From Pseudoxanthomonas suwonensis (lineage in GTDB: Bacteria > Pseudomonadota > Gammaproteobacteria > Xanthomonadales > Xanthomonadaceae): a stretch of DNA of 39,624 nt. Position numbers and translations under genes: made by a program. Position 1 is the stretch's first letter; the number at the start of each line of letters is the position of its first letter. Positions 30,053 through 34,303 of this stretch are shown in pieces. Below the pieces are notes generated by a model. The model saw only the letters and a list, made by a program, of their open reading frames with translations, made no database searches and was not told where the DNA came from. The DNA lies in the NCBI GenBank assembly GCA_030535605.1, contig JAUNRQ010000022.1:1-39624 (forward strand). Direction: 5' to 3'.

Positions 30053-30451
30053 TCAGCCGGCGCGATAATCCTCGTAGGACTTCTCTTCCACGTAGGTCGA
30101 TCCCAGCGCCAGGTTGATTTCCTTCTTCAGCCGGGCACGTTCGTCGTTCTCGACGTACACGCTGCGGGCGAGGCGGATGAATTCATCGTCGAACGCCTGC
30201 GCCTTCTCCTTCAGCCGGATATCGTCCTCGATCACCCAAAGCCGCTCGTTGACCGCCTTCAGGCCCTTGCGCAGTTCGGCGATGTTCTTCCCGGCCGCCG
30301 GATGGGCCATCCAGGTCTTCTCCAGCGCCGAAAGCTCGGTGCGCACGTTGGCCAGCTTGGCCTCGTCGGTCATGCGCTCGGACTTGATTTGCAGGATCGC
30401 GATCTTGTCCAGCAGCTCGCCGAAGGACACGGGGACGGAAATCTCGGACAT
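30053..30451 (-). CDS. DUF6165 family protein, function unknown
   Basis: The 132-residue protein begins MSEISVPVSFGELLDKIAIL, and continues with long charged helices (ERMTDEAKLANVRTELSALEKTW, AELRKGLKAVNERLWVIEDDI, DDEFIRLARSVYVENDERARLKKEINL), suggesting a helical bundle or coiled coil. It ends YVEEKSYEDYRAG. I recall this pattern as DUF6165, found beside tRNA or glycan genes in several proteobacteria, without known function. No signal peptide or membrane segment. The start at 30451 is favoured by the family; upstream frame is spurious. It lies next to the divergent tRNA-Ser. Confidence 0.78.
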   Translation of the reverse strand: MSEISVPVSFGELLDKIAILQIKSERMTDEAKLANVRTELSALEKTWMAHPAAGKNIAELRKGLKAVNERLWVIEDDIRLKEKAQAFDDEFIRLARSVYVENDERARLKKEINLALGSTYVEEKSYEDYRAG

Positions 30452-30577
30452 GGGGCAACTGTCTCGTGGGGAAACCGGCTCCCAGTGTAGCCCGCACGCG
30501 CCGCCCGGCGACTTGTTCGCGGACGCGCGGCCACGTATCATTCCCGCCCTTGGCCGCACCACCGGCCCACCGCTTCC

Positions 30578-30765: not shown

Positions 30766-31473
30766 ATGATCGAATTCGGCCATCTCACCCACCCCGGCCT
30801 GCGCCGCGACCTCAACGAAGATACCTACTACGGCGATGGAGCGCTCGGATTGTGGCTGGTGGCCGATGGCATGGGCGGGCACGAGTTCGGTGAACTGGCC
30901 AGCGCACTGGCGCGCGAGGTCATCGTCCGCGAGACCCGCGCCGGAACCCCGCTGGTGGACGCGATCCGGACCGCCGACGAGGAAATCCAGCGGGTGTCGC
31001 AGCGGCGGCGGGAGTCGTTGCCGATGGGCACCACCGTGGTCGCCGCGCGGATCGACGCCAAACGCCAGTTCGAGGTGGCCTGGGTCGGTGACAGCCGCGC
31101 GTATCTGTGGCAGCACGGCAAACTGCGCCAGATCTCGCACGACCACAGCTACGTGCAGGAACTGGTGCGCCAGGACGTGATCAGCAGCGAACAGGCGCGC
31201 AACCATCCGCGTCGCAACGTGGTCACCCAAGCGCTGGGGGTGACCGGCCGGGACCAGTTGAAGGTGGAAAGCGTCTCCGGCCAGCTGCTGCCTGGAATGC
31301 AGTTGCTGCTGTGCAGCGACGGGCTGACCGAGGAAGTCGACGAAGCCGGCATCACCCGGGTGCTCGCGCATGTCGAATGCAGTGCGCAGGAGTGCGTCGA
31401 CGGGCTGGTGGCGGCGGCGCTGGTCGGCGGCGGCTCGGACAACATCACCGTGGTGCTGGTGCGCCGGCACTGA
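30766..31473 (+). CDS. PP2C-type serine/threonine protein phosphatase (Stp1-like)
   Basis: The 235-residue soluble phosphatase has the PP2C metal motifs in order: GLRRDLNEDTYY near residue 11, VADGMGGHEFGELAS, GTTVVAA, WVGDSRAYLW, LCSDGLTEEV near 185 and SDNITVVLV at the C-terminus. Such enzymes dephosphorylate phosphoserine and phosphothreonine, often opposing an STPK kinase; none is in the window. It lies immediately before the SpoIIE-HATPase sensor and STAS genes (117 bases to the next start), which suggests a shared regulatory job, though the IR in the gap points to separate transcription of the sensor. The start has no ribosome site; CATTAT is six bases upstream. Confidence 0.9.
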   Translation: MIEFGHLTHPGLRRDLNEDTYYGDGALGLWLVADGMGGHEFGELASALAREVIVRETRAGTPLVDAIRTADEEIQRVSQRRRESLPMGTTVVAARIDAKRQFEVAWVGDSRAYLWQHGKLRQISHDHSYVQELVRQDVISSEQARNHPRRNVVTQALGVTGRDQLKVESVSGQLLPGMQLLLCSDGLTEEVDEAGITRVLAHVECSAQECVDGLVAAALVGGGSDNITVVLVRRH

Positions 31474-31508
31474 CGACATGGGCATGACCGGCGCCCGTGC
31501 GCTTCGGA

Positions 31509-31547
31509 TATAGTCGTCTTCAGCCGCGGGGTGCCGCTGAAGACGAC
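31509..31547 (+). promoter_or_regulatory. Possible promoter with a perfect 12-bp inverted repeat
   Basis: TATAGT at 31509-31514 is a good -10 candidate; ATGACC 19 bases before it is a weak -35. Beginning within that box, GTCGTCTTCAGC (31513-31524) is repeated in inverse as GCTGAAGACGAC (31536-31547), with 11 bases between. The arms match perfectly. As DNA this could be an operator that covers the transcription start; as RNA it would be a strong hairpin in the leader. No T-run follows, so it is not a classic terminator. It lies 44 bases before the sensor gene. Confidence 0.55.
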
Positions 31548-31590
31548 ATCGCATCGCGCGCGGCATCCACCCGGGGAGGACCGCCGCCCA

Positions 31591-33915
31591 ATGCCCTTGC
31601 GCAGTCTGGCAACGCGCCAAAGCCTGTGGTTGTTCGGTGCAGCAACGCTCGTGCTGCTGCTGGTCGGGAGCGTGGTGTTCTGGCTTGCCAACCGCGCCGT
31701 GCTGCGCGACGCGGAAACCTGGAACCTGCGCGCGGCCGAGCGCGGCGCGACGGCATTGGCGGAAGACATGACGCGGGTCGCTGCCTCGGCGCAGATCATG
31801 CGCGCGTTCGCCAACGAGGGCGGCATCCGGCCGAATGACGAGCGCCTGCTGGTCAAGGGCATCCTGGAAGCCAACCCGCTGCTCTCCAGCTTCGCACTGA
31901 TCCGCCTTCCGGACGACGGCCCGGTGGCGTCTCCGTACTGGTACCGCTCGCCGGACGGCTTCGTGCACCGCGACCTCGCCGAGGACGTCGCCGGCTATCG
32001 CTCGCAACCGTGGTTCATCCAGGGCATGAGCTGCGTCGACGGCTGCTGGGGTGAGCGCTTCCGCTCCGATGCCCGCGGCAAGGAACTGATGAATTACAGC
32101 CTTCCGGTCCATGTCGATGGCGCGCCGGTGGGGCTGGTCAGTGCCGATCTGGACATCGGCTGGCTGCAACGGCATGTCACCCATGCTTCGCGCGATGCGG
32201 TCATCGCGTTCATCATCGACCGCCGGTCCGGGCAGATCATCGCCCACCCGCAACCGGAGTACGTGGGTAGGTCACTGAACGACGCTATCGTCCCTGACCG
32301 TGGCAGCACGTTCGAGGAGGCCAGCGCGGTATTCACCAGCGAACAACCGGCAACGGTGACCGCCTGGTCACGCCTGCGAGACACGCGCACCCGGTACTTC
32401 ATCGCGTCGGTACCCGGCTCGAGCTGGACGCTGGCGATGAGCGTGCCGGAGCAGTCCGTGCTGGCAGGGGTCAGACGCATCCGCTGGATCAGCGGACTGC
32501 TGACCTTGCTCAGCCTGTCGTTGCTGGCGATTTTCGTCCGTCAGTACCTTGGTCGATCATTGCAGCCGCTGACCGAGCTCGACGCTGCCACCCAAAAGGT
32601 CGCCACGGGCGATCTGGACTTCGTGCTGCCGACACCACGACACCAGGACGAGGTTGGACGGTTGTCGCAATCGTTCTCGCACATGCAGCACCAGCTTCGG
32701 GCGTACTTGAGCCAGGTGGAAACCGAATCGGCACGACGTGAGCGTTCTCGCAGCGAGCTGGAGATCGCACGCCTGATCCAGCGCTCCATGTTGCCGGACG
32801 GCAGCGACGTGACCGGCACCGAGGGGATCGACTGCGCGGGTTTCCTGTTGCCGCAGAACTCGGTGGGCGGCGATTTCTACAGCTACGTCATGAACGGCGA
32901 CGTGCTTGCGTTCATCCTTGGCGACGTCTCGGACAAGGGCATCCCGGCGGCACTGATGACCGCCCGGGCACTGACCCTGTTCGATGCGGCGGCCCGCCAC
33001 CAACGCTCACCCGCCGCGCTGCTGTCGCGCCTCAACGCGGATCTGCACGGCAAGAACGACGCGTACATGTTCGTCACCGCCATCTGCGGCACGTTCGACC
33101 CGGCGCGGGGAATCCTGCATCTTGCCGGTGCCGGTCACGAGCCGCCGCTGCTCCATGACATCACCGGCGCATCAAGGCTGGACCTGGAGACCGGACCGGC
33201 ATTGGGCATCGACGCCACGGCGCACTATCCGGAGTCCACCGTGCAGTTGGTCCCGGGTCAGTCGCTGCTGCTGTACACCGACGGCATCACCGAGGCCATG
33301 TCGACGGATGGGACGATGTACGGGTTGCAACGCCTGCAGGAGGTGCTCGAGAAACCGATGCCGCCGAATTCAAGTGGATCCATCGAGCACGTCTTCGACG
33401 ATGTCCGCACGTTCGTGGGCGAAACGCCCCAGCACGACGACATCGCCCTGCTCAACCTGGGCTGGCGGCCGCCCGGGCAGTTGCATGCACGGCAATGGAC
33501 CAACCAGCGCGACAACATCGCACCGGCAATGGACTGGGTGGAACAACACGCGCGCCTGCTGGGGGCCGACGACACCCTGATCCTCGAGTTGCGCCTGATT
33601 GCCGAAGAATTGCTTGCCAACGCCATCGGACACGGTTACCCGGATGATCGTGACGGGACGATCCGGATCCAGCTCTCGCGCCATGACGACCTGTTCCGGC
33701 TGGTCCAGCGTGATACCGGCATCGCCTTCGACCCGACGTCATGGGAAGCCGAACCGGGGCGGGAGCCGGATTCGATCGGCGGCCACGGAATCCATCTGGT
33801 ACGCGCCATGGCGACCCGGCTGCGCTACCATCGATTGCAAGGTGCCAATGCGGTCGAGGTGCTGCTGCAACGCGCCTCGACTCCCACGCCAGCAGGAGCA
33901 GTCCATGAGTCTTGA
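31591..33915 (+). CDS. Membrane sensor with HAMP, SpoIIE phosphatase and RsbW-type kinase domains
   Basis: The 774-residue protein has a first membrane helix (about 11-33), a periplasmic sensing region of about 260 residues with a Cache-like look (PYWYRSPDG...GKELMNYSLPVHVDGAPVGLVSADLDIGWLQ), a second helix (about 297-317) and a HAMP segment. A SpoIIE/PP2C domain follows from about 390, with all metal motifs (VGGDFYS, GDVSDKG, YTDGITEA, QHDDIAL). The C-terminal HATPase_c domain (from about 660) keeps the N box EELLANAIGHGY, DTGIAFDP and GGHGIHLVRAMA. It may both dephosphorylate and phosphorylate the STAS protein encoded by the overlapping next gene. GGAGGA is 11 bases before the ATG, slightly far. 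Confidence 0.92.
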   Translation: MPLRSLATRQSLWLFGAATLVLLLVGSVVFWLANRAVLRDAETWNLRAAERGATALAEDMTRVAASAQIMRAFANEGGIRPNDERLLVKGILEANPLLSSFALIRLPDDGPVASPYWYRSPDGFVHRDLAEDVAGYRSQPWFIQGMSCVDGCWGERFRSDARGKELMNYSLPVHVDGAPVGLVSADLDIGWLQRHVTHASRDAVIAFIIDRRSGQIIAHPQPEYVGRSLNDAIVPDRGSTFEEASAVFTSEQPATVTAWSRLRDTRTRYFIASVPGSSWTLAMSVPEQSVLAGVRRIRWISGLLTLLSLSLLAIFVRQYLGRSLQPLTELDAATQKVATGDLDFVLPTPRHQDEVGRLSQSFSHMQHQLRAYLSQVETESARRERSRSELEIARLIQRSMLPDGSDVTGTEGIDCAGFLLPQNSVGGDFYSYVMNGDVLAFILGDVSDKGIPAALMTARALTLFDAAARHQRSPAALLSRLNADLHGKNDAYMFVTAICGTFDPARGILHLAGAGHEPPLLHDITGASRLDLETGPALGIDATAHYPESTVQLVPGQSLLLYTDGITEAMSTDGTMYGLQRLQEVLEKPMPPNSSGSIEHVFDDVRTFVGETPQHDDIALLNLGWRPPGQLHARQWTNQRDNIAPAMDWVEQHARLLGADDTLILELRLIAEELLANAIGHGYPDDRDGTIRIQLSRHDDLFRLVQRDTGIAFDPTSWEAEPGREPDSIGGHGIHLVRAMATRLRYHRLQGANAVEVLLQRASTPTPAGAVHES

Positions 33916-34303
33916 GGTGACGGTAGTCCAGGATGAGCGGCACGGCGTCGTGATGCGATTGGCCGGACGCCTGGACACGACCAATGCACAGACGATGGAC
34001 CAGCACGTCGACGACGCGCTGGCGATGCTCGGCGACGAGGGCGTGCTGATATTCGACATGGCAACGCTGGACTACATCTCCAGCGCCGGCCTGCGCTCGA
34101 TCTTCCGTGCCCGCAAGCTTGCCGGCAGCGCCGGCTCGCAGGCACTGCTGGTCAACTTGCAACCGCAGATCCGCAAGGTGTTCGACATCGTCAAGGCGGT
34201 GCCGCTGTCGGAGGTATTCGCCTCCGAACAGGAGCTGGAACACTACCTGGATACCATGCAACGCCGGGTCCTTGACGGCAGCCACGACGACGACAGCGGT
34301 TGA
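33905..34303 (+). CDS. STAS-domain anti-sigma factor antagonist
   Basis: The 132-residue protein is a single STAS domain of the SpoIIAA/RsbV type: VVMRLAGRLDTTNAQTMDQHVDDAL, then VLIFDMATLDYISSAGLRSIFRARK, then LVNLQPQIRKVFDIVKAVPLSEVF. The phosphorylatable serine is expected in DYISSAGL (Ser59 or Ser60). It would be switched by the kinase and phosphatase halves of the upstream sensor, whose gene it overlaps by 11 bases, with AGGAG seven bases before its ATG. The regulated partner (a sigma factor, an anti-FlgM factor or a cyclase) is not encoded in the window. A short acidic tail ends the protein. Confidence 0.92.
   Translation: MSLEVTVVQDERHGVVMRLAGRLDTTNAQTMDQHVDDALAMLGDEGVLIFDMATLDYISSAGLRSIFRARKLAGSAGSQALLVNLQPQIRKVFDIVKAVPLSEVFASEQELEHYLDTMQRRVLDGSHDDDSG

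Follow-up and report, generated by a model that had tools for sequence, protein, structure and literature searches.

The membrane sensor gene and the STAS gene that overlaps its end, in the 39,624-nucleotide stretch of DNA analyzed here (the window), quite likely form a two-gene partner-switching module in which the kinase and phosphatase halves of a single chain set the state of Ser60 in the STAS protein, with the target of the switch encoded elsewhere. The earlier note on this DNA described three open reading frames in a row, for a PP2C phosphatase, the sensor and the STAS protein, and read them as one unit. All three frames exist as it described and are intact, and the row stands as an arrangement of DNA; as a functional unit it does not hold up to synteny and a survey of gene neighborhoods. 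The result is a correction of a reading that took in a neighbor by chance: we judge the PP2C to belong to the core genome and the module to consist of two genes. The features, in window coordinates, are:

30766–31473, plus strand: Stp1-like PP2C phosphatase, 235 aa (PP2C_2/PP2C above cut-off)
31513–31547, no strand assigned: 15-nt inverted repeat with a 12 bp perfect stem in the PP2C-sensor gap, single copy in the genome
31591–33915, plus strand: fused membrane sensor, 774 aa from ATG 31591 (ORF open from GTG 31531)
31678–32475, plus strand: periplasmic double-Cache (PDC) sensor domain (Pfam MCP-like_PDC_1, 1.5e-7)
32551–32703, plus strand: HAMP domain (Pfam HAMP, 5e-10), then a long helical linker (model helices)
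32899–33465, plus strand: SpoIIE/PP2C-type serine phosphatase domain with intact metal site (SpoIIE, 2e-48)
33508–33855, plus strand: RsbW-type HATPase_c_2 serine kinase domain with intact N box and G boxes (1e-19)
33905–34303, plus strand: STAS protein of the RsbV/SpoIIAA type, 132 aa (Pfam STAS, 2e-15)
34082–34084, plus strand: Ser60 codon, predicted phospho-acceptor, aligned with SpoIIAA Ser58

A sensor with phosphatase and kinase on one chain

The sensor chain runs from a transmembrane segment through the double-Cache (dCache) domain, a second transmembrane segment and the HAMP domain to the SpoIIE phosphatase and, last, the HATPase_c_2 kinase. In a profile search MCP-like_PDC_1, HAMP, SpoIIE and HATPase_c_2 each score above the Pfam cut-off, which bears out the anatomy proposed beforehand (Cache-like, HAMP, SpoIIE, RsbW-type HATPase); the search of the sensor region, which had been suggested as a check, and the structural model make the Cache-like part a double-Cache domain. 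The likelier start, going by the sequence, is ATG 31591, since a GGGGAGG box lies upstream of it and the first residues of a Dyella homologue align there (MSLRSLAWRLALW in the sensor and MPLRSLATRQSLW in the homologue); on the same grounds a start at 31531 is less likely.

The metal- and ATP-binding motifs, which had been taken to be intact, have their residues present in the sensor, and those tested are conserved throughout, or in the majority of, 49 fused homologues. D448, D465, D584, D636 and D637 of the phosphatase (794-aa numbering) are invariant in these homologues, as are the G-box glycines and the N-box glutamate of the kinase. Of the 49, 48 retain the N-box asparagine and 41 the G1 aspartate, the other 8 having His there. 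Of the features that mark RsbU/RsbV/RsbW-type partner-switching modules, the locus has a SpoIIE-type phosphatase with an intact metal site, an RsbW-type HATPase_c_2 with intact N and G boxes, and a linked STAS protein with a phospho-serine motif. This upholds the proposal of a single membrane chain in which a periplasmic dCache input is connected to a phosphatase and a kinase, both intact, and which has its own STAS gene. A chain in which one catalytic half is dead or merely structural would act in one direction only, and loss of kinase activity in a similar chain is what the title of a paper on Rv1364c, as cited in PMC9138534, claims; since the metal- and ATP-site residues are all kept in the sensor and largely invariant across the fused homologues, we regard such a chain here as very unlikely.

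An AlphaFold2 model of the sensor, built on 32 sequences, has a mean pLDDT of 86 but a pTM of 0.48, so that the individual domains are good and their mutual arrangement is unsure. In the model the dCache part is bordered by two long helices, and the stretch from the HAMP domain to the phosphatase is a helical linker (helices 292–338 and 354–399 lie in the HAMP/linker region), as would be expected for a phosphatase dimer controlled through its linker. A linker mechanism has been proposed for HAMP-type phosphatases (PMC12143880). Foldseek returns the RsbU-RsbW tandem of Rv1364c as the best match of the model (3ke6, 2e-19). With VIA-align, Z is 28.7 for SiaA-PP2C (6k4e), 27.9 for Rv1364c, and 23–25 for the dCache structures 3lib (24.6), 7prq (24.0) and 9heh; the rmsd to Rv1364c is 12.9, and the two therefore do not match as one rigid body.

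At the pocket residues where dCache amino-acid receptors carry RPWY, the sensor has QPWF, and for this reason we predict no ligand. Several other phyla have a dCache-SpoIIE gene directly preceded by a gene for an NMT1/THI5-like periplasmic binding protein (Pfam ≤1e-31; L138:4336-5328, L140:4348-5361, L150:4389-5384, L148:3010-3993, L142:3004-3981 and L131:193-1212), which may deliver a ligand to the sensor in those phyla; the window contains no NMT1/THI5-like gene.

The STAS partner and the proposed switch

The STAS gene starts 11 bp before the sensor gene ends, a sign of a tightly coupled pair, and its product is the probable substrate of the sensor's kinase and phosphatase. In the genome, which is 82% complete, this protein is the only PF01740 match, and one RsbW-type HATPase is over threshold. 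When the protein is aligned with SpoIIAA, Asp57-Ser58 falls on Ser59-Ser60. The earlier note had named both serines as phosphosite; Ser60 is the likely one because it aligns with the phospho-serine Ser58, Ser59 being at the position of Asp57. An SSA-G-L motif is found in most of the collected STAS proteins (93 of 120 ORFs, overlapping loci being counted more than once).

The computation establishes the domain anatomy, the intact active sites, the pairing of the genes and their independence from the PP2C; from these features we infer the phosphorylation reactions, the direction of the signal and the target. The dCache domain would sense a small periplasmic ligand, and the HAMP domain and coiled-coil linker would pass the signal to a dimeric SpoIIE phosphatase, shifting the balance between it and the RsbW-type kinase that shares its chain. 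The kinase half would phosphorylate STAS Ser60 and the phosphatase half would dephosphorylate the STAS protein, one phospho-form of which would bind the target.

The PP2C gene and its neighborhood

The PP2C is related to Stp1/IreP and lies just under the curated cut-off: it aligns nearly end to end with the NCBIfam model NF033484 and scores 209 bits, where the cut-off is 230. Every same-family genome searched has an orthologue (24 of 24 with the window's own included, 23 of 23 without it), and of all 40 genomes searched 38 have one; it is as a rule single-copy, with 64–79% identity within the family. In eight relatives (L083, L084, L085, L087, L088, L089, L090 and L092) the gene adjoins dnaQ and rnhA across a gap of 51–240 bp with no gene between, and in 7 of these 8 tRNA-Ser(CGA) flanks it on the other side. 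The row of tRNA-Ser, PP2C, dnaQ and rnhA is a fixed neighborhood in relatives that have no sensor there, and in the window the sensor-STAS pair occupies exactly the gap between PP2C and dnaQ. A DUF6165 protein, encoded at 30053-30463 of the window (Pfam 2e-8), also stands beside tRNA-Ser(CGA) and PP2C in most of the relatives checked.

We surveyed the neighborhoods of 110 sensor loci, namely 20 from Rhodanobacteraceae, 36 from Lysobacteraceae and 54 dCache-SpoIIE loci from many phyla, scoring STAS genes within 1.5 kb. The PP2C is found in none of the 110, and in genomes that have both sensor and PP2C the two genes are far apart or on separate contigs. The earlier note had offered such a survey as a test of its reading, with the three genes being rarely together as the adverse outcome; this is the outcome for the PP2C, while the pairing of sensor and STAS is conserved. 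In the three-gene reading the free PP2C would also dephosphorylate this STAS protein and so add a second layer of control, and the three genes are indeed adjacent and co-directed, with 117 bp from the PP2C to the sensor (counted to ATG 31591). Against it stand the presence of the PP2C throughout the family in a conserved tRNA-Ser/dnaQ context, the empty PP2C-dnaQ junction in the eight relatives, its absence from all sensor loci surveyed, a hairpin between the PP2C and sensor genes, and three Ser/Thr kinases in the genome that could be its partners. Synteny and the survey lead us to reject the three-gene unit, and a second layer formed by the PP2C is most improbable; on the comparisons made here we judge the PP2C to be an unrelated housekeeping gene that neighbors the module without being a member of it.

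A consensus scan of the PP2C-sensor intergenic stretch finds no sigma-70-like promoter. The hairpin at 31513–31547 is without a T run and is a candidate terminator, operator or insertion scar; its single copy in the genome disposes of a genome-wide repeat.

Distribution and origin of the sensor-STAS pair

The STAS gene is adjacent to the sensor gene in 20 of 20 Rhodanobacteraceae loci and 34 of 36 Lysobacteraceae loci, and it lies within 1.5 kb of the dCache-SpoIIE gene in 26 of the 54 loci that come from named genomes across many phyla. In these three groups 17 of 20, 16 of 36 and 12 of 54 loci have the kinase fused to the sensor; otherwise it is often a separate gene next door, and many relatives encode the same domains as adjacent genes. 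These separate-gene versions are strong evidence for a joint function of phosphatase, kinase and STAS. A tree of 71 rows has at least 11 changes between the fused and separate-gene forms, which makes the single chain a variant that recurs; by this measure the fused chain is not unusual. As dCache-phosphatase-kinase chains are this widespread and interchange with separate genes, their novelty does not lie in the fusion. Literature searches found no paper on dCache partner-switch chains. In one Lysobacteraceae genome (L035:6887-11445) two sensor genes, one unfused and the other fused, stand in tandem with a single STAS gene.

The closest kin in an order-wide search come nearly all from one other family, at 36–38% identity, and we identify this family as Rhodanobacteraceae because the sensors of G541 and Dyella nitratireducens are identical. 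The Rhodanobacteraceae pairs (for example Dyella nitratireducens, L122/L259) have the same fused dCache-HAMP-SpoIIE-HATPase chain with STAS directly downstream. They are often at the tuf-ychF locus, whereas the window pair sits in the PP2C-dnaQ gap and is placed by the tree outside their clade, as its sister (99/98) on a branch of length 1.37. Transfer and differential loss are indistinguishable because of this position as sister to a clade on a long branch, and the GC content of the locus gives no sign of a foreign insert. On the tree the window sensor is also separate from the sensors of Lysobacteraceae, which in many cases are near a gene that we take to be aceE (this name, like that of a malic-enzyme neighbor, is our reading of the sequences). 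An origin of the window sensor among the aceE-locus sensors of its own family is not favored, given that it branches with Rhodanobacteraceae.

Known partner switches and the target

The tandem of phosphatase and RsbW-type kinase in one chain is shared with Rv1364c of Mycobacterium tuberculosis (3ke6), but there the input is a PAS domain and the STAS domain is on the same chain, whereas the window has a membrane dCache input and STAS as a separate ORF. A phosphatase of this type also occurs in the SiaA/SiaB/SiaC/SiaD system of Pseudomonas aeruginosa: among single domains SiaA-PP2C matches the structure of the sensor best, and among NCBIfam models SiaA gives its top match. Orthology to SiaA is rejected, as the NF038263 score is 113.9 bits against a curated cut-off of 700. 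In the Sia system the kinase SiaB is a protein of its own, the substrate SiaC takes its phosphate on Thr68, and the operon includes the gene for the target SiaD. HsbR-HsbA of P. aeruginosa and CrsR-CrsA of Shewanella combine phosphatase and kinase/anti-sigma factor in one chain with a separate STAS protein, but their input is a receiver and they have no membrane sensor, where the window chain has dCache and HAMP. The likeness to HsbR drawn by the earlier note fits the output half; the closest solved matches are Rv1364c and SiaA, and RpoS is recognised neither here nor in same-family genomes.

The search for RpoS gives no match over the cut-off in any same-family genome, the window's genome being 82% complete, which makes absences from it provisional. 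The HsbR/CrsR-RpoS scheme, known from Pseudomonas and Shewanella, thus seems not to apply in Lysobacteraceae, and the target of the module is probably not RpoS. Candidates are a diguanylate cyclase, another non-sigma effector, or an RpoD-like, RpoH-like or ECF factor. In three locus groups inspected we find no sigma factor, GGDEF protein or other target candidate linked to the module, which counts against both of the following readings. In one, the kinase half would be an anti-sigma factor and the STAS protein would compete with a sigma factor for binding. HsbR and CrsR act in this way on RpoS (PMC6482189), in Chlamydia an Rsb network controls how much of the housekeeping sigma factor is available (PMC4552016), and the genome at its 82% completeness has three Sigma70_r2 proteins that could serve (RpoD-like, RpoH-like and one ECF factor; L213, L214 and L212). 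With RpoS not recognised, and with the gene of the sole ECF factor seen followed by that of a 359-aa protein which may be its own regulator, we consider a sigma-factor target doubtful. In the other, as for HsbA and SiaC, one phospho-form of the STAS protein would bind and control a diguanylate cyclase or other enzyme with no sigma factor involved. The SiaA pathway, to whose phosphatase the structure is closest, ends in the cyclase SiaD, phosphorylated HsbA binds the cyclase HsbD, and few sigma factors face five GGDEF matches in the same incomplete (82%) genome; against it, the STAS protein is a PF01740 member. We advance an enzyme target tentatively.

It is also conceivable, if unlikely, that the pair is a stable orphan switch, a periplasmic one-chain sensor setting STAS both ways in lineages without recognisable RpoS, with a target of a class new to partner switching; were this true, such a target could be a non-cyclase enzyme, for instance, or, in a free-living gammaproteobacterium, the housekeeping sigma factor. 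The target of this STAS switch, which is conserved in many Rhodanobacteraceae and Lysobacteraceae, is a testable question. Two tandem STAS genes follow the kinase gene in Pseudoxanthomonas and relatives (L041:9360-10169, L042, L145 and L149:6404-7214), possibly as two competing outputs.
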